Shown: positions 5,957-51,841 of the stretch, piece after piece
Layout: every line of letters begins with the position of its first letter
Numbering within the stretch: the first letter of the stretch is position 1
Position numbers and translations under genes: made by a program
The notes under the pieces: generated by a model
What the model was told of the DNA's origin: nothing
What the model saw: only the letters and a program-made list of their open reading frames with translations
Databases searched by the model: none
NCBI RefSeq assembly: GCF_017377795.1
Contig: NZ_JAFRDR010000008.1
Location: 186,001 to 250,000, forward strand
Direction: 5' to 3'
Source of the DNA: Williamsia soli
Lineage (GTDB): Bacteria > Actinomycetota > Actinomycetes > Mycobacteriales > Mycobacteriaceae
DNA length: 64,000 nucleotides

Positions 5957-6116
5957 ATGCGCGACGGGGAGGTGACCACGAGCTTGTGTCGGCGGCGCCG
6001 GCTGGCACGCGGAGCGTGCGGAGCGGCGTCGGACGCTGATACCAACTGCGAGATGTACCCAGGGGTTGCCCCTGAGACGGGTTCGAAGAACCCACTCTCA
6101 CCTCCCCACCGCGCAC
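5957..6116 (-). ncRNA. Putative retron msr-msd RNA
   Basis: Directly upstream of the RT and on its strand, two segments pair over 19 contiguous positions: a1 (6116-6098) with a2 (5975-5957). The 10-bp core GGGGAGGTGA/TCACCTCCCC is perfect and the extension contains G-U pairs that exist only in RNA made from the RT strand. Inside lie, in order, a 6-bp stem with a 3-nt loop (6093-6079), a second stem of up to 8 bp with a 3-nt CAA loop (6076-6058), and a longer imperfect stem capped by GCACGC-TCC-GCGTGC (6019-6005). Two short msr hairpins plus one long msd hairpin enclosed by an a1/a2 stem is the retron layout. A TANNNT-type box, TACGAT, lies at 6128-6123. The branching guanosine cannot be assigned by eye. 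Confidence 0.72.
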
Positions 6117-6157
6117 ACATGCATCGTAGCTGTGCTTGTCTGGCTCGCTCCTGATTT

Positions 6158-6241
6158 TGTCCAAACGACGGCACGCTCAACGGCGATATCAGCACGCTCA
6201 ACGGTATTTTCGGCACGGTCGGCGGCAGTTTCGGCACGCTC
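6158..6241 (-). repeat. Four tandem 21-nt repeat units, consensus GA(G/C)CGTGCCG-N12
   Basis: Read on the minus strand, four consecutive 21-nt units begin GAGCGTGCCG, GACCGTGCCG, GAGCGTGCTG and GAGCGTGCCG, each followed by 11-12 variable bases. The same unit with the same period occurs at 37916-38106. The rest of the gap between the retron RNA and the dnaE2 stop (6242-6409) contains no gene I can support; it holds GAGCGAGC-type purine-rich patches and nothing else recognisable. Confidence 0.8.
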
Positions 6242-6409
6242 GACGGAACCACACACGAAGGTCTGAGCGAGCCCAGCGATGCAAGGGCCTGGGAGGTGTG
6301 GCCGCGGTTGTTCTGGACTGCCGACGAACGAGCGCCAGCGAGGTGAGGAGAAGGGAAGAACAACCGCCTGATGGCCACACCGACAAGCGAGCGGAGCGAG
6401 CAGACAAAC

Positions 6410-9400
6410 TCAAGCCCAGTCCCTTGACCTCGTCCCGACCCTCAGGTCCATGCGTTGGAGGCGTTCTGCCACCACGGTCACGGCTCCTTCAGCGTTTTGC
6501 ACCCGGCCGCGGATCAGCAGGGCCGGGGCCGTCTGGGCGAGTTTGCGGTACTTGGCCCACAACCCCACCGAGCAGACCACGTTGATCATCCCGGTCTCGT
6601 CTTCGAGGTTCACGAAGGTCACCCCTGACGCGGTGGCGGGCCGCTGCCTGTGGGTGACCGCTCCCCCGACGAGCACCCGCGAGCCGTCGGGTACCGACAG
6701 CAGATCGACGGCCGCGATCACACCCAGCGCATCGAGTTGGGGCCGGATGAATTCGGTGGGGTAGTTCCCTGGGCTGACCCCGGTGGCCCAGACGTCCGAG
6801 GCCGCCATCTCGACATCGCTCATCCCCGGTAGCGCCGGCGAGGTGTTGATCTCGTGCAGCGGGAGCCGATCAGATTTCTCCTGCGCTGCCGCACCCGCAT
6901 CCCAGAGAGCTTGGCGCCGACTGGTCCCGAAGCATTCGAGTGCACCCGCGGTCGCAAGCGCCTCGAGCTGCCGGGTGTTGACGTCGCACCGCCGGGAGAG
7001 GTCGGCGGCATTGGTGAACGCCCCACCTGATGTGCGTTCGGCGACGATCGCCTCGGCCAGGTCGATACCTATGTGTTTCACCGAGCCCAGTCCGAGGCGG
7101 ACGTCCAAGCCGGCATTCTCCAGGTCCGCGTGCGGTTGCGACAGGTTGACGTCCGGCCCATGCACCTTGACGCCGTGCCTTCGGGCGTCGGCGACCAGTG
7201 ACTGTGGTGAGTAGAAACCCATGGGCTGCGCCTTGATCAGGGCGGCGCAGAATGCGGCGGGATGATGGAGTTTGAGCCAGGAGGAATAGAACACGAGCGA
7301 GGCGAAACTCTGCGAATGACTCTCTGGGAAACCGAAATTGGCAAACGCGGCCATCTTCTCGAAGACGCGGTCGGCCACCTCACCGGTGATGCCGTGCAGC
7401 TCTTTCATTCCTTCATAGAACCGGGCGCGCAAGCGCTCCATCTTCTCCGGGGAACGCTTCGACCCCATCGCCCGTCGCAGCTGATCGGCTTCAGCGGAAC
7501 TGAATCCGGCGACGTCCACGGCCAGTTGCATCAGCTGTTCCTGGAAGAGCGGCACGCCCAGGGTCCGCTCCAGTGCCGGCTTCATCGAGGGGTGTTCACA
7601 GGTTGCCTCTTCCAGGCCGTTGCGGCGCCGGATGTACGGGTGCACCGAGCCGCCCTGGATCGGGCCCGGCCGGATGAGTGCCACCTCGACCACGAGGTCG
7701 TAGAACTTCCGCGGCTTGAGCCGGGGCAGGGTTGCCATCTGCGCCCGCGACTCCACCTGGAACACCCCTACGGTGTCTGCCTTGCAGAGCATGTCGTAGA
7801 CCGCCGGCTCGGTGAGATCGATCTTCGCCAGGTCGACGTGGATGCCGCGGTGTTCGGCGAGAAAGTCGATGGCGTAGTGGATGGCCGAGAGCATGCCGAG
7901 ACCCAGCAGGTCGAACTTCACCAATCCGATTGCTGCACAATCGTCTTTGTCCCACTGCAGCACGCTGCGATTGGGCATCCGGGCCCATTCGGTGGGGCAC
8001 ACATCGGCGATGGGCCGGTCGCAGATCACCATGCCGCCGGAGTGGATGCCCAGGTGTCTCGGCATGCCGTTGATCTGCCCGGCCAGATCGAGCACATCAT
8101 CGGGGATGTCGCTGTCTGTCGGCTGAGCCTTGTCGTACCGCTGCACCTGTTTGCTCCAGGCATCCTGCTGTCCCACCGAATAGCCGAGCGCACGCGCCAT
8201 GTCGCGGACCGACGACTTGCCGCGGTACGTGATCACGTTGGCCACCTGCGCGGCGTTCTGCCTGCCGTACCGCTGATACACGTACTGGATCGCTTCTTCA
8301 CGGCGGTCCGATTCGATGTCGACATCGATGTCCGGCGGGCCGTCCCTGGCCGGGGACAGGAATCGTTCGAACAACAGACTGTTCCCCACCGGATCGATTG
8401 CGGTGACCCCGAGGGAGTAGCAGACTGCCGAGTTCGCCGCACTGCCCCGACCCTGACAGAGGATGTCGTGGGTACGGCAGAACGAGACGATGTCGTGTAC
8501 CACCAGGAAATAGCCGGGGAATCCCAGTGAATCGATCACGTTCAACTCATGTTCGATCTGCTGATACGCCTGGGGATGACTCTGGGGTGGGCCGTACCTC
8601 TCCAGTGCTCCCCTGGCCGTCAGTTCACGTAGCCACGAACTCTCGGTGTAGCCCTCGGGCACATCGAACGGCGGCAACTTGGGCGCGATCAGATGCAGCC
8701 CGAACGCCAGGTCCCGGGCCAGCATCGCGGCGTTGTCGATGGCGTCGGGATGTGCACTGAGCAATCGCATCATCTCGTCACCACTGCGCAGATGTGCCCC
8801 GCCCAGCGGACCGAGCCAGCCGTCCATGTCGTCGAGGCTGCGTCTGGCGCGGACCGCGGCCATCGCCATCGCCAGCCGCCGGCGATGTGGCGCCGAGAAG
8901 TGGGCACCGGTGGTGGCCACCGTGGCGACGCGGTTGCGCCGGGCCACCCACGCGAGTGCGGCATTGCGTTCGTCGTCATCGGCTGCGCCCTGCGCTGTCA
9001 ACTCCATCACCACGTTGTCGCGACCGAATTTCTCGATCAGGTCACGCAATGCCGCTTCCGCGGCCGACGGTCCGCCGGTCGACAAAGCTTGTCGCACACT
9101 TCCTTTACGACAGCCGCTGAGGATCAGCCAGTGCCCGGCCGCGGCCTGCGCCAGGGTGTCGATGTCGAATCGGAGCAACCCCTTCTCGCCCGCCGCCATG
9201 TGTCCGTCCGCGAGCTGCCGGGACAGTCTCCGGTAGCCCTCCTGACCGCGGGCCAACACCAGCAGATGCGCACCCTCCGGGTCGGCCACCCCCGTGCGGG
9301 CCGAGTCGTGTTCGAGCGAGAGTTCGGACCCGAAGACTGTTGGCAGTTCCCATTCCAGGGCTGCCTCGGCGAAGCGCACCACCCCGTAGAAACCGTTGTG

Positions 9401-9697
9401 ATCGGTGATCGCCAGCGCTTCCAGCCCGAGCCGGTAAGCCTCTTCGGCCATCTCTTCCGGACTGCTGGCGCCATCGAGAAAACTGTAGGAGGTGTGGGCG
9501 TGCAATTCGGCGTACCGAGTGTCAGAAACACCACGGTGCAGGGCACCTGCCTCGTACGGCCCGCGCTTGCGCGACCAGGCCGGACTGTCACCACCGTCAC
9601 CGGCGAATGTCTCACCCGGGCGCCCACCAGCAGTCGGGCGCCCAGAAAGAACGCGCTCCATCTCCGACCAGGTCGGAGGGCCATTGTGCCAGCCCAT
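6410..9697 (-). CDS. dnaE2: Error-prone DNA polymerase III alpha-type subunit
   Basis: DnaE2 is the SOS-induced C-family polymerase that performs mutagenic translesion synthesis together with ImuA' and ImuB. The 1095 residues contain an N-terminal PHP domain (TRYAELHAHTSYSFLDGASS at about 60-80), the polymerase palm with GRGSAANSA and the catalytic PDIDVDIE, fingers with GIHSGGMVICDRP and PLFQEQLMQLA, and a C-terminal OB-like region ending GTRSRDWA. The ATG at 9697 lies where transcription from the upstream SOS promoter would begin, so the message is probably leaderless. The replicative DnaE1 is longer (about 1180 residues) and is not in this window. The cassette partner imuA'-imuB lies 6 kb away. 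Confidence 0.96.
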   Translation of the reverse strand: MGWHNGPPTWSEMERVLSGRPTAGGRPGETFAGDGGDSPAWSRKRGPYEAGALHRGVSDTRYAELHAHTSYSFLDGASSPEEMAEEAYRLGLEALAITDHNGFYGVVRFAEAALEWELPTVFGSELSLEHDSARTGVADPEGAHLLVLARGQEGYRRLSRQLADGHMAAGEKGLLRFDIDTLAQAAAGHWLILSGCRKGSVRQALSTGGPSAAEAALRDLIEKFGRDNVVMELTAQGAADDDERNAALAWVARRNRVATVATTGAHFSAPHRRRLAMAMAAVRARRSLDDMDGWLGPLGGAHLRSGDEMMRLLSAHPDAIDNAAMLARDLAFGLHLIAPKLPPFDVPEGYTESSWLRELTARGALERYGPPQSHPQAYQQIEHELNVIDSLGFPGYFLVVHDIVSFCRTHDILCQGRGSAANSAVCYSLGVTAIDPVGNSLLFERFLSPARDGPPDIDVDIESDRREEAIQYVYQRYGRQNAAQVANVITYRGKSSVRDMARALGYSVGQQDAWSKQVQRYDKAQPTDSDIPDDVLDLAGQINGMPRHLGIHSGGMVICDRPIADVCPTEWARMPNRSVLQWDKDDCAAIGLVKFDLLGLGMLSAIHYAIDFLAEHRGIHVDLAKIDLTEPAVYDMLCKADTVGVFQVESRAQMATLPRLKPRKFYDLVVEVALIRPGPIQGGSVHPYIRRRNGLEEATCEHPSMKPALERTLGVPLFQEQLMQLAVDVAGFSSAEADQLRRAMGSKRSPEKMERLRARFYEGMKELHGITGEVADRVFEKMAAFANFGFPESHSQSFASLVFYSSWLKLHHPAAFCAALIKAQPMGFYSPQSLVADARRHGVKVHGPDVNLSQPHADLENAGLDVRLGLGSVKHIGIDLAEAIVAERTSGGAFTNAADLSRRCDVNTRQLEALATAGALECFGTSRRQALWDAGAAAQEKSDRLPLHEINTSPALPGMSDVEMAASDVWATGVSPGNYPTEFIRPQLDALGVIAAVDLLSVPDGSRVLVGGAVTHRQRPATASGVTFVNLEDETGMINVVCSVGLWAKYRKLAQTAPALLIRGRVQNAEGAVTVVAERLQRMDLRVGTRSRDWA

Positions 9698-9702
9698 AAC
9701 TC

Positions 9703-9731
9703 ACTATATCGAACACATATTCGATAGACAA
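9703..9731 (-). promoter_or_regulatory. SOS-regulated dnaE2 promoter with LexA box filling the spacer
   Basis: On the minus strand TTGTCT (9731-9726) and TATAGT (9708-9703) are separated by exactly 17 bases, and the spacer is occupied by TCGAATATGTGTTCGA (9724-9709). This matches the actinobacterial LexA consensus TCGAAC-N4-GTTCGA with one deviation. Bound LexA would lie between the -35 and -10 elements. TATAGT is five bases from the ATG, implying a leaderless transcript. Confidence 0.88.
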
Positions 9732-9821
9732 GTTACCTGTTACCCTCGACACATCAATGTCGGTTCGCGGGTGGGGACAGCGCCTCTGGCGGGGCTTCAC
9801 CTTTCAAGGAGGAGCGCATCA

Positions 9822-11948
9822 ATGCCCGACTACTTCATCACCGGTGGCACCGGCTTCATCGGGCGCCGGGTTCTACCCCTGCTACTCGCCGCTCTCGAGG
9901 CCGACGAGGCAAGCGGGGTCGACTCGACGGTGTTCGTGTTGGTCCGGCCGGGATCTGTGGAGCGATTGACCACCGCGAGGGCCGACTGGCTGGGCGGCGA
10001 TCGCATCACGGCCGTCGAGGGTGACCTGACCGCGGCAGATCTCGGCGTCGACACCACCGCACACGACCTGTCGAACATCGAGCACGTCCTGCACCTGGGT
10101 GCGATCTACGACATGGCGGCCAGCGCCGCCGATCAGCAATCCGCCAATGTCGACGGCACGGCCCGGGTCATCGCATTCGCACGCGAACGCGGCGCGATGC
10201 TGCATCACGTGTCGTCGATCGCGGTCGCAGGCGACCATGCCGGAGAGTTCACAGAGGCCGATTTCGATCTGGGACAGAGATTCCCATCTCCCTATCACCG
10301 CACCAAGTTCGAATCCGAGAGACTCGTCCGCGATGCCGAAGACCTACGCTGGCGGGTCTATCGGCCTGCGATCGTGGTGGGCGATTCTGTCACCGGCGAA
10401 ATGGACAAGGTCGACGGGCCGTACTACTTCTTCGGCTATCTGCGCGAACTCGGCCGCCTCCCCTCTCGATGGACCATCCCCATGCCCGACATGGGTCTGA
10501 CCAACATGGTGCCCGTCGACTTCGTCGCCGAAGCGCTGGTGACCCTCATGCGTCACGATCTGGCCGAGGCACCGCCCGGCACTCCGGATCCCGGCGGCGA
10601 GGTGTTCCATCTCGTCAGTCCGCACCCCCAGACGATCACCGAGATGTACAACGCGATCGCGCCTGCATTCGCCGGACCGCACGGCCGCGACCTGGTGCCC
10701 CACCGATTCGTTGCGCCGGTCGTCGACCGCAGCTCGCACGGGGTGATCCGGACCGGACGCGATCTCATCGCCCGGCAGCAGGGCATCCCGCCCGCCATCC
10801 TCGACACCCTCTCGATCCCCACGACCTTCAAGGCCGACAAGACCTTCGGAGTCCTGGCCGGTTACGGGGTGGCCCTACCCGACCTCTCCGACTACGGACC
10901 GAACCTCTGGCGGTACTGGCATGAGCACCTCGACCCCAATCGACACCGCCGGCGCAATCCGGCAGGCCCGCTCGCCGGCTTGCACATTCTGATCACCGGG
11001 GGCTCGACGGGTATCGGCAAGGAGACCGCTCGGCAATGCGTACGCAAGGGCGCCGTGGTCTTCCTGCTGGCGCGTGGCGCCGACGAACTCGCGGCGGCAG
11101 TCGATGAGCTGCGATCCGAACAGACTGAACAAAACGGACACCGCGGCGAGGCGTACGCCTACCCCTGTGACATCACAGACAGCGAGGCGGTGAACCTCAC
11201 GATCAAGGCCATACTCACCGAACACGACCACGTCGACGTCCTCGTGAACAACGCCGGGCGCTCGATTCGGCGGGCGACCATCGACGCGGTGGACCGCAGT
11301 CATGATTACGAACGAACAATGGCTGTCAATTACTTCGGCGCGGTGCACCTGACTCTGGCATTGTTGCCTCATATGAAGGAGCGCAACGTCGGGCACATCG
11401 TGAATGTGTCGAGTATCGGTGTGCAGGCGCGCGGACCGCGCTTTGCCGCGTACGTGGCGTCGAAAGCTGCCCTGGAGGCGTTCAGCGATGTCACCGCCAC
11501 GGAAACGCTCTCCGACCACATCACGTTCACCAACATCCACATGCCGCTCACGCGGACAAAGATGATCGCGCCCACCGAGGCGTATGACAATGCGCGGGTC
11601 CTTAGTCCACACACCGCGGCGGCGATCGTGGTGCGCGGCATCGTCGAGAAGCCACGCCGTATCGACACCCCACTCGGCACGCTCGCGCAGATCGGTCAGT
11701 TCCTCACTCCGAAGCTGACCGGCCGCCTGCACCATCAGGGTTATCTACTCTTCCCTGATTCCGCGGCCGCCCGAGGCAAAGCCGAAGCCTCCGAATCAAA
11801 TCGGGAAACAGACGTGATCACACGGGCACACGGCGTACGCGACCGCGCCCATGCACTCGCCCGACCGGCCCGGGTGGCGATGGTCGAAAGTGGCGCCCGC
11901 CGTATGACCCGTAAGACATTGAACCGAATACCAGGGATTTCGTGGTAG
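9822..11948 (+). CDS. Two-domain SDR protein, AcrA1-like fatty acyl reductase
   Basis: A 708-residue fusion starting at ATG 9822 behind a strong AAGGAGGAG site. The N-terminal half is an extended short-chain dehydrogenase (FITGGTGFIG at 5-14, YHRTKFESE as the YxxxK site) of the male-sterility/fatty acyl-CoA reductase type. The C-terminal half is a classical SDR (LHILITGGSTGIGKETA near 388, NNAGRS, VSSIGV and YVASK). This matches Rv3391 (AcrA1) of M. tuberculosis, proposed to reduce acyl-CoA to aldehyde or alcohol for wax ester or lipid synthesis. Its stop overlaps the GTG start of the next gene, so the three-gene unit is translationally coupled. Exact substrate is unproven. Confidence 0.85.
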   Translation: MPDYFITGGTGFIGRRVLPLLLAALEADEASGVDSTVFVLVRPGSVERLTTARADWLGGDRITAVEGDLTAADLGVDTTAHDLSNIEHVLHLGAIYDMAASAADQQSANVDGTARVIAFARERGAMLHHVSSIAVAGDHAGEFTEADFDLGQRFPSPYHRTKFESERLVRDAEDLRWRVYRPAIVVGDSVTGEMDKVDGPYYFFGYLRELGRLPSRWTIPMPDMGLTNMVPVDFVAEALVTLMRHDLAEAPPGTPDPGGEVFHLVSPHPQTITEMYNAIAPAFAGPHGRDLVPHRFVAPVVDRSSHGVIRTGRDLIARQQGIPPAILDTLSIPTTFKADKTFGVLAGYGVALPDLSDYGPNLWRYWHEHLDPNRHRRRNPAGPLAGLHILITGGSTGIGKETARQCVRKGAVVFLLARGADELAAAVDELRSEQTEQNGHRGEAYAYPCDITDSEAVNLTIKAILTEHDHVDVLVNNAGRSIRRATIDAVDRSHDYERTMAVNYFGAVHLTLALLPHMKERNVGHIVNVSSIGVQARGPRFAAYVASKAALEAFSDVTATETLSDHITFTNIHMPLTRTKMIAPTEAYDNARVLSPHTAAAIVVRGIVEKPRRIDTPLGTLAQIGQFLTPKLTGRLHHQGYLLFPDSAAARGKAEASESNRETDVITRAHGVRDRAHALARPARVAMVESGARRMTRKTLNRIPGISW

Positions 11949-13069
11949 CTCCTTCAGAAGATTCCCACAGCGGCACCGACATCGGCCGCGTCTCCAGAGT
12001 CCTGGCCGCAACCGCAGGACTCGACACTCCCTTGGCCGTGGTGGACGAAGTGGTGCTGGACGCCAACCTCGACCGAATGGCCGAGTTCGCATCCGCCGCC
12101 GGTGTCGCGCTCCGACCACACGGAAAAACCCACAAGAGCCCGGAACTGGCGGCCCGTCAGATCTCCCGCAGCGCAATCGGTTTGACGGTGGCCACCATTG
12201 GTGAGGCTGAGATCTTTGCAGCCTCAGGGGTCACCGACCTGTTCATCGCCTATCCCCTGTGGCTCACCGAGGGAAAGGCCCGTAGGCTCCGCGCGATCAT
12301 GGAGCACGCCGAGGTCCTGCTCGCGGTTGATTCCGCTGCCGGCGCCGCCTGTCTGGCGCACCACCTGCCACACGCACGAGTCGTCGTCGAGGTCGACAGT
12401 GGTCAGCACCGCACCGGTGTCCACCCACAGCGGGCGGGCGACATCGGGCACAGCGCTGCGGCGGCCGGTCTACAGGTCCTCGGCATCTTCACGTTCCCAG
12501 GACACAGCTACTTTCCGGGCCGACCGGCGGCGGTCGGGGTTCAGGAGGCCAATGCGCTGGCCATGGCCGCCCAGTCGCTGCGGGCGGTCGGCATCGACCC
12601 GGTGATCAGGAGTGGCGGATCGACGCCGTCGGTTGCCCACGCCGATCCCACCGTGCTCACAGAGATCCGGCCCGGGGTCTACCCCTTCAACGATGCCCAG
12701 CAGGTGGAGCTGGGTGTGTGCTCGTTGCCAGACGTGGCGCTGACCGTCGTGACCACTGTCGTCCATCTCGACGGCAACAAAGCCGTCCTCGACGCAGGCA
12801 GCAAGGCGGTCGGAGCTGATCACCCGGCCTGGGCCACCGGGGGCGGTCGACTGCCGGAGTTCGGCGACGCCCGCGTCACGTCGTTGTCCGAACACCACGC
12901 GACCGTCGACTTCACCGATTCCGCTGAGCGGCCCGGGCTGGGCGACCGGGTGCGACTGGCCCCCAATCACGTATGTACAGCAGTGAATCTGACCGATGAA
13001 TTGGTGATCGTCGACCATCACGGCACACTGACCAGATGGCCGGTGACCGCCCGCGGGGCGAACGCATGA
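11942..13069 (+). CDS. Fold-type III PLP enzyme, D-serine dehydratase/D-threonine aldolase-like
   Basis: A 375-residue alanine-racemase-fold enzyme. RPHGKTHKSPELA near residues 58-70 carries the PLP-binding lysine, and the C-terminal PNHVCTAVNL has the His-x-Cys metal-ligand arrangement of eukaryotic-type D-serine dehydratase and D-threonine aldolase. It is therefore likely a metal- and PLP-dependent lyase acting on a D-hydroxy amino acid; the substrate is not determinable. The GTG start overlaps the reductase stop by 7 bases, and the TGA overlaps the ATG of the serpin gene. The combination with a lipid reductase and a serpin is unusual and does not suggest an obvious pathway. Confidence 0.82.
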   Translation: MVAPSEDSHSGTDIGRVSRVLAATAGLDTPLAVVDEVVLDANLDRMAEFASAAGVALRPHGKTHKSPELAARQISRSAIGLTVATIGEAEIFAASGVTDLFIAYPLWLTEGKARRLRAIMEHAEVLLAVDSAAGAACLAHHLPHARVVVEVDSGQHRTGVHPQRAGDIGHSAAAAGLQVLGIFTFPGHSYFPGRPAAVGVQEANALAMAAQSLRAVGIDPVIRSGGSTPSVAHADPTVLTEIRPGVYPFNDAQQVELGVCSLPDVALTVVTTVVHLDGNKAVLDAGSKAVGADHPAWATGGGRLPEFGDARVTSLSEHHATVDFTDSAERPGLGDRVRLAPNHVCTAVNLTDELVIVDHHGTLTRWPVTARGANA

Positions 13070-46436: not shown

Positions 46437-46508
46437 AGTGCTACAGGGTACTTGCCGACTTCGGCAGGACAGAATCTTCAAACGTCAGCACGAAGTTCGT
46501 CATTCGAG

Positions 46509-46538
46509 ATGACACGAAATGACGTTGTGGGCTACAGT
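46509..46538 (+). promoter_or_regulatory. Promoter of the tRNA-like transcript
   Basis: ATGACA (46509-46514) and TACAGT (46533-46538) with an 18-base spacer form a near-consensus promoter 70-110 bases from the glmS start and pointing away from it. Transcription would begin near 46545 and run through two small perfect hairpins (GAACTC-TTG-GAGTTC at 46543-46557 and GGGC-CAGA-GCCC) into the tRNA-like element. Confidence 0.6.
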
Positions 46539-46582
46539 GAGCGAACTCTTGGAGTTCACGGGCCAGAGCCCGCGAGAGTCGA

Positions 46583-46638
46583 GGGGGATGCGTCGGTTGG
46601 GACGCCATCGATACGTTCGATCCGTATGTCCTCCACCA
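46583..46638 (+). ncRNA. Putative anticodon-less tRNA-like RNA with alanine identity (G3-U70, ACCA)
   Basis: The segment can fold as a 56-nt tRNA without an anticodon arm. GGGGGAT (46583-46589) pairs with GTCCTCC (46628-46634) as a 7-bp acceptor stem whose third pair is G-U, followed by discriminator A and an encoded CCA. GCGTC-GGTTGG-GACGC (46590-46605) makes a D-arm-like hairpin with a GG-containing loop. ATACG-TTCGATC-CGTAT (46611-46627) is a fully canonical T-arm, including the G53-C61 closing pair. G3-U70 and A73 are the classic alanyl-tRNA synthetase identity elements. It lies between its own promoter and an intrinsic terminator, upstream of an aminoacyl-lipid synthase operon and an AlaRS-like gene. 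Not a canonical tRNA; tmRNA is far longer. Confidence 0.55.
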
Positions 46639-46670
46639 CCGGTGGTCAGTGATCCACCACAGTCGGCGTC

Positions 46671-46703
46671 AAACGTCCACCGAATTTCGGTGGACGTTTT
46701 TTT
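46671..46703 (+). terminator. Strong intrinsic terminator of the tRNA-like transcript
   Basis: A 12-bp stem (AAACGTCCACCG with CGGTGGACGTTT, loop AATTT) is followed directly by seven T residues on the plus strand only. No protein gene on the plus strand ends here, so it must terminate or attenuate an RNA begun near 46545. The upstream CGGTGG at 46640-46645 could pair with CCACCG of the left arm, which would allow an antiterminator. The rest of the 396-base gap 46437-46832 (46704-46832) is the leader of the esterase gene. Confidence 0.9.
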
Positions 46704-46832
46704 GGCGTTTAGCCAGGTCGCCCCATCGTCGGCAATTGCGCCATTTCCCTTCTGTAACCAGGTATTCCGCGCTGTTAGCCGGTACCTTTTTCCTGCAGGC
46801 TCATCGACGACCAAGGGCACCGAAGGACACCA

Positions 46833-48119
46833 ATGAACTGGCTGTGGGAAACATCGGTGCTCGACGGCTGGGTGCCGTGGACCATTCTGATCCTGGGAAT
46901 CCTGGGATTGGCATGGCTGATCCTGCTGTTCCAGAAGGTTTACCTCCTGTACGTGGTCCCACTGGCGGCAGTCGTGGCGATACTGCTGGTGATTCTGGCC
47001 AAATGGCTCATCGAAGACGTGTGGAAGCTGTTCTCCGACCCGATACCGCTCAACTGCTACATCTGGGGCGGACTCGCAGTGTTCGCGATCCTCCTCCTCG
47101 TTCCCCGGCTCATCCGAGGTAGCGGCGTCTTCGGCCGGATCATCACGGTGCTGGCCACCGTCTTTGCCGTGACGATGGCTTTTTCGCAGATCAATGAACA
47201 TTTCAGTGAGTACCCGACGGTCGGGTCCGTGTTCGGGATCAACAACGTCAAGACGATCTCTCTCGAGGAAGCCCGAAACAACGACATCAAGACCGTCGAA
47301 CTGAGTCAATGGAAGAAGCCGAGCAGCCTTCCCGGCGGGGGCGCCGTCATCACCGCCCCGATTCCTGGCACGACCTCGAATTTCAACGCCCGGCCCGCCA
47401 AGATCTATCTACCGCCCGCCTACTTCACCGAACCGCGTCCCTTGCTCCCGGTGCTGGTCCTGATGGCCGGGCAACCCGGCTCACCCGAGGATTGGCTCGT
47501 CGGCGGTCGCCTCACCCAGACCATGGACCAATACGCCGGCGCCAACGAAGGACTGTCCCCTGTCGTGGTGGTCGCCGATGCCACCGGCGACGAACTCGCC
47601 AATCCGCTCTGTATGGACTCCAAACTCGGCAACGTGGCGGCGTACCTCGCCAAAGACGTCCCGGACTGGACGAAGGGAAACCTGCAGGTCGACTCCGACC
47701 CCAAGGCCTGGGCGATCGGCGGACTCTCGTACGGCGGCACGTGTTCGCTTCAGATGACCACCAACTACCCCGAGATCTACCCGACATTCCTCGACATGTC
47801 CGGGCAGCTCGAGCCGACCCTCGGTGATCGCAAACGCACCGTCGACCAGGCCTTCGGTGGCGACTCGGCGAAGTTCACCGCCGTCAATCCGATGGACATC
47901 ATGAAGACCAAGCAGTTCCCGGGAGTCGCGGGCGCATTCGTCGTCGGTAAGGACGACGCCGAGTACCGGCCAGGCCTGACCCAGGTGTTCCAGGCAGCGC
48001 AGGCGGCGGGGATGGACGTCCATTTCGACACCGTTCCAGGAGGACATTCGTTCGCCGTGTGGTCCGCTGGACTCAAACTCGAGATGCCATGGCTCGGCAA
48101 ACGCCTGGGTTTGCCGTGA
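46833..48119 (+). CDS. Membrane-anchored alpha/beta esterase
   Basis: A 428-residue protein starting at ATG 46833 behind GAAGGA. About four hydrophobic helices occupy residues 12-135 (WTILILGILGLAWLILLF, LLYVVPLAAVVAILLVILA, WGGLAVFAILLLVP, IITVLATVFAVTMAF), and the rest is an esterase-D/antigen-85-like alpha/beta hydrolase with nucleophile GGLSYGGTCSL, KIYLPPAYF and a catalytic His in VPGGHSF. The catalytic domain is predicted outside the cytoplasm. The downstream gene encodes an aminoacyl-lipid synthase; aminoacyl-phosphatidylglycerol hydrolases are paired with such synthases in other bacteria, so removal of the amino acid from the lipid is a reasonable inference. Mycolate-related esterase activity is the alternative. 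Confidence 0.82.
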   Translation: MNWLWETSVLDGWVPWTILILGILGLAWLILLFQKVYLLYVVPLAAVVAILLVILAKWLIEDVWKLFSDPIPLNCYIWGGLAVFAILLLVPRLIRGSGVFGRIITVLATVFAVTMAFSQINEHFSEYPTVGSVFGINNVKTISLEEARNNDIKTVELSQWKKPSSLPGGGAVITAPIPGTTSNFNARPAKIYLPPAYFTEPRPLLPVLVLMAGQPGSPEDWLVGGRLTQTMDQYAGANEGLSPVVVVADATGDELANPLCMDSKLGNVAAYLAKDVPDWTKGNLQVDSDPKAWAIGGLSYGGTCSLQMTTNYPEIYPTFLDMSGQLEPTLGDRKRTVDQAFGGDSAKFTAVNPMDIMKTKQFPGVAGAFVVGKDDAEYRPGLTQVFQAAQAAGMDVHFDTVPGGHSFAVWSAGLKLEMPWLGKRLGLP

Positions 48120-48225
48120 ACTGGGCAATAATTCTGTTCACAAGCGACATTTCGCACACCGCTCGCACACTCACCCCGCACAGCGAGACACAGCTCGCAC
48201 GTCCGGCAACGAACGAAAGGCGCCG

Positions 48226-50361
48226 ATGAGCACGACCGACACCCCCAGCGAGGCACCCCCGTCCGAGCAGGCGGCGGCCCCATCGCCCCTCGCGAAGGTG
48301 TTCGGTGCCATCAGCTGGACTGCGCGCAAAGTACCGTTCACGACCACAGTCGTCGTGGCGATCATCGTCATCGGCATCGTCACCGGCGCCCTGTGGGAGA
48401 CGGTCGGCGACAAGAGCTGGTTCAACGACATCGCGTACGGCTATCCACCGCTGACCGAGAGCAAATGGTGGACTCCGCTGTCGGGCATGTTGTTCAAGTC
48501 CAGTCCGCTCAGCTACCTCTTCATCACGCTGCTGTTCGCGATCTTCGTGGGCTGGAGTGAATGGCTCCTGGGCACGGTCAGGGTGGCGATCGTCACCGTC
48601 GTGGGGCAGCTCATCGGCGTGCTCGGTGCCATCGCCTTCATCGCGATCTTCCGTCCGACGAGCTGGGCCTGGGTCGATCACCTCGCCGAGGTGCGCGACG
48701 TGGGCGTCACCACCGCCATCGTCGCCGCGATCGCCGCCGCAAGCGCCACCCTCAAATCGCCGTGGCGCCTACGGGTCCGGGCTGTTCTCCTGGCGTATGT
48801 GGCGATCTCGTTCCTGTTCGAAGGCAAGCTGGCGGATGTGACCCACCTGATCGCGGTGGTGGTCATGCTGATCGTCGGCGAGCGGTTCTTCAGCAAGAGC
48901 GAGTCCGGTGTCATGCCTCGTACCCGCCAGGAAATCCGGATGATCAGCTTCCTCGGTCTGGTCCTCATCGGAGTCGTCAACATCGCGGTCGCGGTGTTCC
49001 CAGGTGACGGGCCGTTCGGGCCGACGGACTCGAACGACAGCCTCAGCTGGGGTTCGATAGTCAGCGTCCTGATCGTGCTGCTCATCGCCGACCAACTCCG
49101 CCGAGGCCGTAAATGGGCCTGGTGGGTCACCGTCGTCTATGGCCTGCTGTACATCGCCTTGCTGGTTCTGGTCCTCATTGCCGTGATCACCTCGAGTTTC
49201 GAGGGCAAGGGCGCCGTCACCGTCGGTACCGGACTTCTCTGGATCGTCGAGCTGACCCTGCTGTTCGGTGGCCGCTATGCGTTCATGGTCCCGCTGAACA
49301 GCCGGAAAGCCATGGCGGGCATGGGTGGTTCGAATCCCGCAGAACAGGTCCGCAGCCTCCTGAAGAAGTACGGCGGCAGCACCATGAGCTGGATGATCAC
49401 CTGGGAGAACAACCAATACGCGTTCACCAAGGACGGCGAGGGCGTAATCGGTTACCAACGTCCCGCAGGCACCGTGCTCGCGTTGGCCGATCCCGTCTGT
49501 GCGCCAGAAAAACTCGAGGAGACCATCCGCGAGTTCACCGATATGGCCGAGAACAGCGCTCGGATCCCGTGCTGGTTCTCCGTCAGCGAGGCCACCGCCT
49601 CCATCGCCCGCGACATGGGCTGGCGAACCCTGCAGATCGCCGAGGACACGATCATCGACCTCCCGACGCTGGCCTTCAAAGGCAAACCGTGGCAGGACAT
49701 CCGATCGGCTCTCAACCGGGCGAAGAAGGAGGGCATCACCTTCAAACTCACGACCCTGAAGGACGAACCCTTCGCAGTCGTGGCGCAGGTGCGGGCGATC
49801 TCCGAAGAGTGGGTGGGCGACAAGGGCCTACCCGAGATGGGCTTCACGCTCGGCAGTGTCGAAGAGGCCCTCGACCCCGAGGTCCGGGTGGCCCTGGCCA
49901 TCGACGACACCGGGTCCGTACACGGCGTGTTGTCGTGGCTGCCTGTTTTCGGCAGCGGAGACACCATGCGCGGCTGGACGCTGGACGTGATGCGCAGACG
50001 CGACGACGGCTTTCGGCCGTGCATCGAGTTCCTCATCGCGAGTTCCGCCCTCGCGTTCAAAGCCGAGGGCGCCGAGATCCTCTCGTTGTCGGGAGCACCG
50101 CTCGCACGGGCCGAGGACGAGGCCGGCGAGGTGGTGGCGATGGACCGGATGCTCGACATGATGGGTGCAGCGATGGAGCCGTTCTACGGCTTCCGGTCGT
50201 TGCACGCGTTCAAGATGAAGTTCCAACCCCGCTACGAACCGGTCTACATGTGCTTCCGGGACGAGGGCGACCTACCGCGTATCGGAGTCGCGCTCACCCG
50301 CGCCTACCTTCCGAACGCCACTCCCGGTCAGATGATCAAACTCGCAACCACCCGGGAATAG
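48226..50361 (+). CDS. MprF-type aminoacyl-lipid synthase (DUF2156)
   Basis: A 711-residue protein. The N-terminal half has about eight to ten membrane helices (VVVAIIVIGIVTGALW, YLFITLLFAIFVGW, VAIVTVVGQLIGVLGAIAF and others, to about residue 355); the C-terminal 350 residues are a DUF2156 tandem-GNAT domain (TWENNQYAFTKDGEGVIGYQ, PCWFSVSEATASIARDMGW, RSALNRAKKEGITFKL, CIEFLIASSALAFKAEGAEILSLSGAPLA). This domain transfers an amino acid from aminoacyl-tRNA to phosphatidylglycerol, diacylglycerol or a related lipid at the inner membrane face. Whether the donor is Lys or Ala cannot be read from motifs; the tRNA-like RNA and the AlaRS-like gene nearby favour alanine. Confidence 0.85.
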   Translation: MSTTDTPSEAPPSEQAAAPSPLAKVFGAISWTARKVPFTTTVVVAIIVIGIVTGALWETVGDKSWFNDIAYGYPPLTESKWWTPLSGMLFKSSPLSYLFITLLFAIFVGWSEWLLGTVRVAIVTVVGQLIGVLGAIAFIAIFRPTSWAWVDHLAEVRDVGVTTAIVAAIAAASATLKSPWRLRVRAVLLAYVAISFLFEGKLADVTHLIAVVVMLIVGERFFSKSESGVMPRTRQEIRMISFLGLVLIGVVNIAVAVFPGDGPFGPTDSNDSLSWGSIVSVLIVLLIADQLRRGRKWAWWVTVVYGLLYIALLVLVLIAVITSSFEGKGAVTVGTGLLWIVELTLLFGGRYAFMVPLNSRKAMAGMGGSNPAEQVRSLLKKYGGSTMSWMITWENNQYAFTKDGEGVIGYQRPAGTVLALADPVCAPEKLEETIREFTDMAENSARIPCWFSVSEATASIARDMGWRTLQIAEDTIIDLPTLAFKGKPWQDIRSALNRAKKEGITFKLTTLKDEPFAVVAQVRAISEEWVGDKGLPEMGFTLGSVEEALDPEVRVALAIDDTGSVHGVLSWLPVFGSGDTMRGWTLDVMRRRDDGFRPCIEFLIASSALAFKAEGAEILSLSGAPLARAEDEAGEVVAMDRMLDMMGAAMEPFYGFRSLHAFKMKFQPRYEPVYMCFRDEGDLPRIGVALTRAYLPNATPGQMIKLATTRE

Positions 50362-50369
50362 CTCGATCG

Positions 50370-50420
50370 TGGTGGGTTTTGGTGAGCAAACCTGCAGGTC
50401 GCGCTCGCCAAAACCCACCA
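50370..50420. terminator. Bidirectional terminator between the lipid synthase and the AlaRS-like gene
   Basis: TGGTGGGTTTTGGTGAGC (50370-50387) pairs with GCTCGCCAAAACCCACCA (50403-50420) over 18 positions with one G-U, around a 15-base loop that contains the palindrome ACCTGCAGGT. It fills the gap between the two convergent genes. Confidence 0.8.
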
Positions 50421-50428
50421 TCATCGGA

Positions 50429-51841
50429 TCAGTCGGCGGTGGCGCCGAGCTTGGTTGACGCCTGCGAACGAGCACGCTGCGCTTCGATCTCCGCATCGAA
50501 CTCCGCCCGCCAATTCACCGTCATCGGCAAGCCACGTGTCACGGCCTCCTCGGCAGACAACTCGACCGGGAACCCGAACGTGTCGGACAACTTGAACAGA
50601 TCCTTACCGGTCACCGTCTCGCCGGTCTTGCCGAGCCGCTTGAGTTCGCGCAGCCCCTTGCCGAGAGTGCGACGGAAGGACCGCTCCTCCTTTTCCAGCA
50701 CCTCGATCACGTTCTCGCGGCGCTCGGCGACTTCCGGGTAGGCGTCGGTGTAGAGATCTGCGACCACCGGTACGAGCTGCGTCAGCAGCTTGTCCTGGAC
50801 GCCGAGCTGGTGAGCGAACCGGATCGCCCGGCGCACCAGCCGGCGCATCACGTATCCCTGTTCCTTGTTCGACGGCACCACGCCGTCCACCGCGAGGAAG
50901 ACCGCGCCACGGATGTGGTCGGCGATGACCCGCATCGCCACGGTGTTCTCGTCGTACCCGACCCCGGACAATTCCTCGATCTTCTGCACGATCGGCCACA
51001 GCAGACTGATCCGGTACACATCAGGACTGTCGATCGACGCGGCCGCGATCCGTTCGAGGCCACCGCCGTAATCGACGTTGAGTTTGGGCAATTCGGCGAA
51101 GCCCTCCACCGTCTTGGCGTATTGCATGAACACCGAGTTGCCGATCTCCATGTACTGCCCACCGTCGGAGTTCTGATGTGGGTACTTGCCGAACGCGGTG
51201 TCGTGCTCGACCTGCGGGAAGTAGTAGAAGACCTCACTGTCGGGCCCGCCGGGATCGCCGACCGGCATCGTCTCCGGTCCACCGGACCGCGACCACCAGT
51301 TCTTGTCGCTGTAGTACGCGATCCGCGCGCCCTGGTTGCCGACCTCGTTGCCGTGTTCTTCGGTCAGCAACACCACCCGGTCGGCGGAAACCCCGGCCTT
51401 GGTGAACAATTCGGTCCAGATGTCGGCGCTCTCGTCATCCCGCGGAATTCCGTTCTCGGGATCGCCCGAAAACACGGTCACGTAGATGCGATTCGGGTCG
51501 AGACCTACGATCTCGGTGAGGAAATGCCAGAACAACGGGATCTGCTCACTCTTGAAGTAGTCGCCGAGACTCCAGTTCCCGAGCATCTCGAAGAACGTCG
51601 TGTGCCGGTTGTCGCCCACCTCTTCGATGTCCTGCGACCTCAGGCACGTCTGCGAATCAGCAAGTCGCTTCCCCGACGGGTGTTCGGCACCGAGCAGGTA
51701 CTTGAGTAGCGGCTGCATGCCGCTGCCCGTGAACAGCGTCGTCGGGTCATCTTTGGGCACAAGCGGTGCGCGGGGAATCACGGTATGACCGCGTTCGGTC
51801 ATCAACGCGAGATAGGCACTGCGGATCTCATTGGCATCCAT
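50429..51841 (-). CDS. Stand-alone alanyl-tRNA synthetase catalytic domain (AlaRS-like paralogue)
   Basis: A 470-residue protein corresponding to only the N-terminal half of AlaRS (full-length about 875-900). Class II core motifs are intact: TGSGMQPLLKYLLG, TCLRSQDIEEVGDNRHTTFF, FEMLGNWSLGDYFK (motif 2), GNSVFMQY and GGGLERIAAA (motif 3). The tRNA-recognition part is also present (VIADHIRGAVFLAVDG, VPSNKEQGYVMRRLVRRA, KLSDTFGFPVEL). The editing domain and C-Ala domain are absent, with a natural stop rather than decay. An equivalent E. coli fragment (residues 1-461) still charges tRNA-Ala and minihelices. It converges on the lipid synthase and is unlikely to be the housekeeping alaS. Confidence 0.88.
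   Translation of the reverse strand: MDANEIRSAYLALMTERGHTVIPRAPLVPKDDPTTLFTGSGMQPLLKYLLGAEHPSGKRLADSQTCLRSQDIEEVGDNRHTTFFEMLGNWSLGDYFKSEQIPLFWHFLTEIVGLDPNRIYVTVFSGDPENGIPRDDESADIWTELFTKAGVSADRVVLLTEEHGNEVGNQGARIAYYSDKNWWSRSGGPETMPVGDPGGPDSEVFYYFPQVEHDTAFGKYPHQNSDGGQYMEIGNSVFMQYAKTVEGFAELPKLNVDYGGGLERIAAASIDSPDVYRISLLWPIVQKIEELSGVGYDENTVAMRVIADHIRGAVFLAVDGVVPSNKEQGYVMRRLVRRAIRFAHQLGVQDKLLTQLVPVVADLYTDAYPEVAERRENVIEVLEKEERSFRRTLGKGLRELKRLGKTGETVTGKDLFKLSDTFGFPVELSAEEAVTRGLPMTVNWRAEFDAEIEAQRARSQASTKLGATAD

Follow-up and report, generated by a model that had tools for sequence, protein, structure and literature searches.

In a stretch of 64,000 nucleotides from the actinobacterium Williamsia soli (contig NZ_JAFRDR010000008.1, positions 186,001 to 250,000; hereafter the window), a 56-nucleotide gene at 46583..46638 on the forward strand specifies a putative alanine tRNA without an anticodon arm, referred to here as the mini-tRNA. 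It belongs to a family whose T and D stems covary and which is present in 27 genomes, and it lies close to genes for a membrane-anchored esterase, an MprF-type aminoacyl-tRNA:lipid aminoacyltransferase and AlaRS-N, a paralogue of alanyl-tRNA synthetase (AlaRS) reduced to its catalytic and tRNA-recognition core. Judged from the sequences, it is likely that AlaRS-N alanylates the mini-tRNA and thereby feeds MprF-type lipid alanylation outside translation. The structure and conservation of the RNA, its pairing with AlaRS-N, the kept motifs and the missing editing domain of this enzyme and the linkage to MprF-type genes were computed directly. That the locus holds a real RNA gene acting as an aminoacyl acceptor is highly probable, that its alanine is loaded by AlaRS-N is nearly as probable, and the link between RNA gene and synthetase is very strong; the lipid use is suggested by gene linkage. 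From these data we infer the transcription of the mini-tRNA, its charging with alanine, its use by the MprF-type enzyme and the role of the esterase.

In the proposed mechanism, AlaRS-N would read G3-U70 and A73 of the mini-tRNA and load alanine, which the MprF-type enzyme would move to phosphatidylglycerol or diacylglycerol in the membrane and which the esterase could remove again. The mini-tRNA/AlaRS-N pair would be lipid alanylation's own alanine donor, separate from translation, and in some relatives a clustered aspartate 4-decarboxylase would supply the alanine. Proofreading by AlaRS-N may be dispensable because a charged mini-tRNA cannot decode a codon.

The window RNA consists of a 7-bp acceptor stem (GGGGGAT with GTCCTCC) containing G3-U70, a D-like arm (GCGTC-GGTTGG-GACGC), a linker (CATCG), a T arm (ATACG-TTCGATC-CGTAT) and an ACCA end comprising A73 and CCA; the anticodon arm is absent. 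An earlier note on this DNA had proposed a 56-nucleotide RNA with an acceptor stem, a D-like arm, a T arm, ACCA and a G-U third pair, and this is confirmed. For comparison, 23 rows were chosen from the 27 genomes, with near-identical copies within a genus omitted, and identical RNAs were collapsed to 21 distinct sequences; earlier alignments of 12 and 18 rows were likewise collapsed to 7 and 14. Members of the family measure 54-56 nt. The 7-bp acceptor stem, A73, a 4-bp D stem and a linker of 4-5 nt at the position of the anticodon arm occur in all 23 rows, and the T stem is fully paired in 22. Acceptor pairs 1-6, G3-U70 included, are invariant in the 21 distinct sequences, while pair 7 is slightly variable. 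CCA is encoded in 16 rows; the other seven end in ACTA, ACTC, ACCG, ACAC or ACCC and would need CCA addition. The T loop reads TTCRA, with TGCGA in three rows, and has 8 rather than 7 nt in Subtercola. In three loci of one family (L204, L205 and L206, from genomes G849, G790 and G687), the change from TTCRA to TGCGA is accompanied by a change from G to A in the D loop, which possibly reflects covariation of the elbow contact, or perhaps one event.

Base pairing is maintained in 335 of 336 base-pair cells of the distinct sequences, and double-sided changes fill 41 cells, while none of 1000 shuffles exceeded 24, a comparison that overstates the independence of the changes as the relatives share ancestry. 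When stem partners were slid in the 18-row alignment, so that kinship was kept, at most one double change was obtained versus 26 real ones. Compensated stems include the D stem CCAC/GTGG of genome G501 and the T stems ATACG, CCAGG, TCAGG and CTAGG. Stems were paired by position, and the lengths of linker and T loop were chosen for best pairing, which leans slightly towards structure; MAFFT columns were not used for these counts because the D arm was misaligned there. The conservation and covariation among relatives on which the earlier note had staked its proposal were therefore found, the T and D stems covarying and acceptor pairs 1-6 being invariant.

Established annotation tools do not recognize the RNA. 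ARAGORN reported no tRNA in the window and none at the Subtercola copy; Rfam gave nothing at gathering score for the mini-tRNA in the window, and a search of 46483-46832 at E<=10 returned two irrelevant families, neither tRNA nor tmRNA. With no anticodon arm and no mRNA-like domain, the mini-tRNA fits neither the tRNA nor the tmRNA (transfer-messenger RNA) class. The tRNA-like domain of tmRNA also combines an alanine acceptor stem and a T arm in the absence of an anticodon arm, and its D arm is not known to have a stem. This likeness would allow the mini-tRNA to be a remnant or relative of that domain and to act in ribosome rescue or tagging although it has no mRNA-like part. Such an origin is very improbable: neither ARAGORN nor Rfam gives a tmRNA match, the D stem of the mini-tRNA covaries and resembles the D arm of an ordinary tRNA-Ala (that of genome G180), and the co-occurrence is with an AlaRS paralogue.

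Ordinary tRNA-Ala offers a closer comparison. In G180, tRNA-Ala(CGC) has the acceptor GGGGCTG/CAGCTCC and the D arm GCGC-AGTTGGTA-GCGC, and the mini-tRNA has the acceptor GGGGGAT/GTCCTCC and the D arm GCGC-ACTTGGG-GCGC. Acceptor pairs 1-4 and the discriminator agree, while pairs 5-7 differ, and the mini-tRNA looks derived from tRNA-Ala. Pair 5 is C5-G68 in all seven tRNA-Ala genes seen (two actinobacterial, five from small genomes of the Candidate Phyla Radiation (CPR) type), and the 21 distinct mini-tRNAs all carry G5-C68 and A6-U67. The bacterial alanine identity set is described as A73, G2-C71, G3-U70, G4-C69 and G20 (PMC9976931). Since pairs 5 and 6 lie outside this set and are nevertheless invariant in the mini-tRNAs, a second reader of these two pairs is suggested.

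Pattern scans first revealed the family next to AlaRS-N, both in related genomes and in two contigs of Pseudonocardia whose T stem differs. Covariance models built from 12 (R1) and 18 (R2) sequences were then run on three overlapping genome samples and detected the mini-tRNA in 10 of 151 genomes of the family, 10 of 397 of the order and 9 of 394 of the class, from which one weak match was dropped. Together with the genomes of both Pseudonocardia contigs and Subtercola boreus, this amounts to 27 distinct actinobacterial genomes (10, then 8 and 6 additional ones, then 3). Accepted mini-tRNAs score 52.6-88.6 bits, and the best matches judged spurious reach 33.4, 31.3 and 27.9 bits (R1/R2): the first, in G049, is coding DNA with a long insertion; the second, in G617, lies inside a gene, has a poor T arm and was the one removed from the class table; the third is an ordinary tRNA. 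All remaining weak matches are below 28 bits. Those at L184, L186, L261-L264, L266, L267 and L270 are ordinary tRNAs by ARAGORN, as are L273-L275, while no tRNA was found at L185, L188 and L190. A relaxed pattern scan gave a flood of chance matches, a single one of which, L040 with its ACTA end, was accepted and confirmed by the covariance model. No plasmid record matched 46500-46720 at the DNA level; AlaRS-N matched 55 plasmid records, all below 60% identity, and the best 20 of the 55 look like ordinary AlaRS. Viral contigs do not contain the exact pattern that the RNA has in the window genus.

Six of the ten family genomes carry one mini-tRNA and four carry two. The second copy of the window genome (L137:9471-9526 on the forward strand, equal to contig C22:152470-152525) differs by one linker base; it lies 3' of a gene that resembles, by eye, one for a sigma factor; it has no clear terminator, and no match to MprF, esterase or AlaRS-N was obtained within the fetched 19.5 kb around it. 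Second copies are also present in G059, G076 and G092.

The distribution of the mini-tRNA follows that of AlaRS-N closely. In the family sample AlaRS-N was called at E below 1e-190, as 150 genomes match at a loose limit because ordinary AlaRS matches too. AlaRS-N is present in 13 and the RNA in 10 of the 151 family genomes, all 10 being shared (Fisher 2.3e-13); the order sample gives 14 and 10, again with all 10 shared (4.2e-17); and the class sample, with G617 dropped, gives 8 of each, with 6 shared, 2 RNA-only and 2 AlaRS-N-only (1.6e-10). The Fisher values are indicative, because the samples overlap and the species are related. Overall, 25 of the 27 genomes with a mini-tRNA, for which a covariance search of actinobacterial genomes had been proposed beforehand, carry the truncated AlaRS. 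The two genes need not be neighbors: they lie far apart or on different contigs in G197, G204, G210, G222, G228 and G258 of the order sample. In G222 they are separated by 5.4 Mb of a single contig of 6.06 Mb, or by about 0.65 Mb should the contig be circular. In G119, a genome of the same genus as the window, RNA, AlaRS-N and the window-type MprF are all missing together.

AlaRS-N itself (50429..51841, reverse strand; 470 residues, PF01411 E = 1.5e-110) lacks the editing and C-Ala domains, and its residues 4-461 align to the E. coli AlaRS fragment 3hxu. Its score against the NCBIfam profile alaS, 380.6, is under the cut-off of 457, and an ordinary AlaRS lies in an 891-residue frame elsewhere in the window genome. 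The class II motifs of AlaRS and the tRNA-recognition domain are retained in the rows compared. The G3-U70 readers of the E. coli enzyme, which we take to be N303 and D400, have the counterparts N325 and D420, and these are kept in 29 of 30 actinobacterial AlaRS-N rows. All 30 proteins end at 459-478 residues and miss the editing (HxxxH) and C-Ala domains. In a maximum-likelihood tree of 46 proteins, actinobacterial AlaRS-N falls among CPR-type AlaRS, apart from ordinary actinobacterial AlaRS, and forms one group of 27 rows and another of Subtercola, Brachybacterium and Brevibacterium, which joins two Saccharibacteria-type rows; Subtercola, of the second group, also has the mini-tRNA. As AlaRS-N nests among CPR-type AlaRS, it was probably acquired twice from Saccharibacteria-like bacteria, the direction and number of transfers being deduced from this nesting. 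The CPR-type enzymes are of the same family, closest by tree, and share the class II motifs; eleven of them have 624-652 residues and an editing motif (HTATH, HTANH or HTVHH), whereas AlaRS-N has neither editing nor C-terminal domains and accompanies an ordinary AlaRS of about 900 residues. Loss of editing in both AlaRS-N groups is expected if the charged product never enters translation. The pairing of a non-decoding tRNA with an editing-free AlaRS, as put forward in the earlier note, is thus strongly supported by an RNA that is conserved with covariation, has an invariant G3-U70 and co-occurs with the enzyme even when unlinked.

Other reduced relatives of AlaRS differ from AlaRS-N. AlaX, a free-standing AlaRS-type editing protein, corresponds to the opposite half of the enzyme. 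AcmF of ascamycin biosynthesis, a truncated AlaRS-like protein, is described as lacking most ATP-binding and alanine-activation residues and acting as a transferase (PMC12945691); in contrast, activation motifs are present in AlaRS-N, and the N and D altered in AcmF seem, by eye, to be kept in the EIGN/ELGN and NVD motifs of the 30 actinobacterial rows.

The connection to lipids comes from the neighboring genes. The window MprF-type protein (48226..50361, forward strand; 711 residues) combines PF09924 (LPG_synthase_C, E = 1.4e-74) with a membrane domain, which is visible by eye and indicated by a Rhomboid_2 match under the threshold, and has no fused synthetase. It reaches 166.6 bits against a cut-off of 600 for the NCBIfam profile bifunc_MprF, covering profile positions 513-837 only, and is not a full flippase-plus-synthase MprF. 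The esterase (46833..48119, forward strand; 428 residues) is a membrane-anchored alpha/beta-hydrolase of PF00756 (E = 6.8e-15) and a candidate aminoacyl-lipid hydrolase; it matches the structure 1jjf (E = 1.4e-9) and has, by eye, N-terminal membrane helices. Pfam profiles uphold the earlier assignment of the esterase, the MprF-type protein and the truncated AlaRS to this region.

Of 27 AlaRS-N loci, 10 have an MprF-type gene within the fetched stretch (two stretches, L178 and L060, are short), with a LysX-like neighbor in G049 uncounted; by chance, this has a binomial probability of 6e-11 at an assumed background of 2% and of 4e-7 at 5%. Pfam assigns PF09924 to the window protein and to five more proteins from four other genomes, G197 contributing two. 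In G197 the mini-tRNA is about 100 bp from an MprF gene, and a distance of about 0.94 Mb separates it from AlaRS-N, which has a second, longer MprF paralogue some 5 kb off. Homologues of MprF (E below 1e-70) are present in 26 of 26 genomes with mini-tRNA or AlaRS-N versus 16 of 25 controls (Fisher 7e-4), the controls being hand-picked and mostly of the same genera, and in all 19 of the mini-tRNA genomes examined for it. The second MprF type, which is longer and about 45% identical in the C-terminal domain, was seen at L176 10162-13308 and L177 1543-4146; it directly follows AlaRS-N in G258 and is the one about 5 kb away in G197. Esterase homologues occur near MprF or AlaRS-N in G141, G057, Pseudonocardia, G322, G790 and G849, and the esterase is an optional part of the system. 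The lipid step envisaged in the earlier note consequently stands as far as the linkage and the co-occurrence with MprF reach, but not as a pathway that always includes the esterase.

Among known members of the MprF/AlaDAGS/LysX family, with which the window protein shares the PF09924 transferase domain, an alanyl-diacylglycerol synthase is known in Corynebacterium and LysX is fused to its own lysyl-tRNA synthetase (PMC10580965), while other MprF enzymes are described as diverting ordinary aminoacyl-tRNAs (PMC9976931). As far as these descriptions go, the window transferase differs from both arrangements in being associated with an AlaRS core on a protein of its own and with a special RNA.

Alanine supply provides a further link. 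Aspartate 4-decarboxylase makes alanine from aspartate. When the open reading frames around 29 AlaRS-N or RNA loci were clustered, the families recurring in at least three loci were MprF, esterase, transporter-like proteins of the major facilitator superfamily (6), ATP-binding cassette (ABC) ATPases (5) and aspartate 4-decarboxylase (3). Of these, MprF, esterase and, in three loci, the decarboxylase lie close to AlaRS-N or the RNA. The latter lies about 100 bp from AlaRS-N in L049 (a metagenome-assembled Pseudonocardia genome, 8332-11392), 1.7 kb beyond the mini-tRNA in L142 (G180, 8223-12960) and between mini-tRNA and AlaRS-N in L145 (G322, 6112-12808), where esterase, MprF, mini-tRNA, decarboxylase and AlaRS-N form a single cluster. 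For L049, L142 and L145, respectively, the scores are 477, 478 and 429 bits with asp_4_decarbox TIGR03801 (cut-off 435) and 507, 506 and 460 bits with PRK09275 (cut-off 321); the closest solved structure to the L049 protein is L-aspartate beta-decarboxylase 2zy5 (E = 6e-113). Finding at least three such loci by chance has a probability of 2e-4 at an assumed background of 0.4% and of 3e-3 at 1%, and the presence of the decarboxylase beside AlaRS-N slightly raised our confidence in lipid alanylation.

Several observations weigh against the proposed account, and they bear on each of its parts. The minimum free energy fold of the window RNA is not the three-arm form, which lies 1.2 kcal/mol above it, and with a z score of -1.09 the RNA folds no better than 26 of 200 shuffles. 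In 16 of 23 relatives the three-arm form is less than 1 kcal/mol above the optimum; the three-arm fold rests on sequence comparison, not on folding energy. In the 18-row alignment, two of five covariation measures fell within the shuffles, the 18-row counts being 228 of 500 for pairs with a double change and 500 of 500 for further pair types. The poor folding score is what a chance fold or a decaying tRNA-Ala pseudogene in an intergenic gap would give, an explanation refuted by the comparison, with its covariation, its invariant acceptor and its 27 genomes, 25 of which have AlaRS-N, and to which we assign a negligible probability. As for the synthetase, the AlaRS-N of G057 has S and E at the two putative G3-U70 reader positions. 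G501 and G769 possess a mini-tRNA and ordinary AlaRS only, and no mini-tRNA was detected in 10 of 35 AlaRS-N genomes: G056, G066, G049, G189 and G271 by strict and permissive searches, G609 and G781 by strict search and in gene-adjacent gaps only, and further R. fascians, Brachybacterium and Brevibacterium. A search beside AlaRS-N in the AlaRS-N-only genomes revealed nothing convincing. Four of the ten (G056, R. fascians, G066 and G049) are one clade, and the G271 assembly is incomplete (88%). On account of G501, G769 and these ten genomes, the earlier statements that the RNA is used only by a lipid transferase and charged exclusively by the paralogue go beyond the evidence.

The same ten genomes, which manage without a detectable mini-tRNA, would suit a regulator or decoy that binds AlaRS-N, ordinary AlaRS, EF-Tu or MprF so as to sense charging or titrate the enzyme, its alanylation being a signal and not a supply, and so would a small RNA that is present in one or two copies and appears to have its own promoter and terminator. 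A regulatory role is nonetheless quite improbable, given that conservation is centred on aminoacylation features (G3-U70, A73, the CCA encoded in most rows and the T arm), that the catalytic motifs of AlaRS-N are kept and that an alanine-making enzyme occurs in three clusters.

The lipid step itself is challenged by the 17 of 27 AlaRS-N loci in which the fetched stretch contains no MprF-type gene. In addition, eight of the 25 controls (G038, G090, G117, G129, G083, G097, G122 and G216) have the same MprF type without RNA or AlaRS-N, so that this enzyme can work without both, presumably on ordinary Ala-tRNA. The C-domain of the window protein matches a lysyl-phosphatidylglycerol synthase (4v36, E = 1.1e-26) and an alanyl-phosphatidylglycerol synthase (4v34, E = 8.9e-25) about equally and so favors neither amino acid. 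The decarboxylase is missing from 26 of 29 loci, the window's among them, in a search of the loci only. The pair could instead be a general non-ribosomal alanine donor whose main acceptor is a peptide of the cell wall, the N-terminus of a protein or a small molecule, with MprF as one client or a frequent neighbor. Along with the loci devoid of MprF, several unlinked mini-tRNAs with none of the three genes nearby fit this idea, and small-molecule alanylation is served by the AlaRS-like AcmF (PMC12945691). We consider it unlikely, though to be taken seriously, as the recurring close neighbors are MprF, esterase and decarboxylase, the transporter-like and ABC ATPase clusters belong to common families, and no mini-tRNA genome tested lacks an MprF homologue.

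The mini-tRNA has a laboratory parallel. An acceptor-arm RNA with G3-U70 suffices for AlaRS, and the minihelix has long been discussed as the ancestral half of tRNA. The mini-tRNA has the acceptor-arm G3-U70 in common with such minihelix and microhelix substrates and differs in being a natural, conserved gene with a D-like arm; if the account is true, it would be their natural counterpart, and AlaRS-N would be a clear case of an enzyme that dropped proofreading because its product stays away from the ribosome. In Staphylococcus, non-translating tRNA-Gly isoacceptors serve the cell wall. They too are reserved for non-ribosomal use, but they keep the complete tRNA form and receive their glycine from the ordinary synthetase, unlike the mini-tRNA with AlaRS-N. 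tRNAs that lost EF-Tu identity elements have also been described (PMC9976931). The openly licensed literature yielded no bacterial anticodon-armless tRNA that is linked with MprF or with a paralogue of a synthetase, which is weak evidence of absence. Each of the enzymes is of a known kind. A fuller version, in which a class of anticodon-armless mini-tRNAs and a CPR-derived (probably twice) proofreading-free AlaRS form a ribosome-inaccessible alanine channel feeding lipids, with G5-C68/A6-U67 as the address label that the dedicated enzymes would recognize and with the decarboxylase making the alanine locally in some lineages, is on balance plausible and is held with somewhat less assurance. A dedicated mini-tRNA and synthetase can be tested with small, easily made RNAs. 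As ARAGORN and Rfam do not see an RNA of 56 nt here, related RNAs that donate other amino acids may have escaped notice.

The remaining features of the window locus concern expression and gene order. A putative sigma-70-type promoter of the mini-tRNA (46509..46538, forward strand; ATGACA, 18 nt, TACAGT) was found by pattern scan, with 9 of 12 consensus positions and one occurrence against a shuffle mean of 0.2; -10-like boxes were seen by eye upstream of many mini-tRNA relatives. On the 3' side, an intrinsic-terminator-like hairpin followed by a T run (46671..46705, forward strand) contains a 14-nt perfect inverted repeat (46671-46684 and 46686-46699) and has a fold z score of -6.5; the corresponding stretches of relatives give -5.0 to -10.3 (six chosen from 24 displayed). 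The pattern scan for terminators reported none 3' of the window mini-tRNA, and the likely reason is that stem and T run overlap. A bidirectional-terminator-like inverted repeat (50370..50420, no strand assigned), located where the MprF and AlaRS-N genes converge, has its core arms, 50370-50387 and 50403-50420, inside a longer 70% repeat. The gene order is variable: RNA-esterase-MprF with AlaRS-N convergent in the window, AlaRS-N-RNA-esterase with MprF divergent in L041, and esterase-MprF-RNA with AlaRS-N convergent in L048.

In two Rhodococcus-group loci with no mini-tRNA detected (L042 7497-13873 and L047 6134-12580), AlaRS-N lies, by eye, between cobN- and cobG-like genes, with a cobalamin-riboswitch-like stretch upstream. 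At L059 and L060 (Brachybacterium and Brevibacterium), where no mini-tRNA was found, AlaRS-N stands beside genes resembling, by eye, those for the small subunit of ribonucleotide reductase, for an FMN reductase and for components of metal uptake; an ABC ATPase was confirmed in this neighborhood. Within the window, the putative leader of the mini-tRNA (46543-46572) contains a 6-bp inverted repeat, GAACTC/GAGTTC, and by eye also CGGGC/GCCCG.

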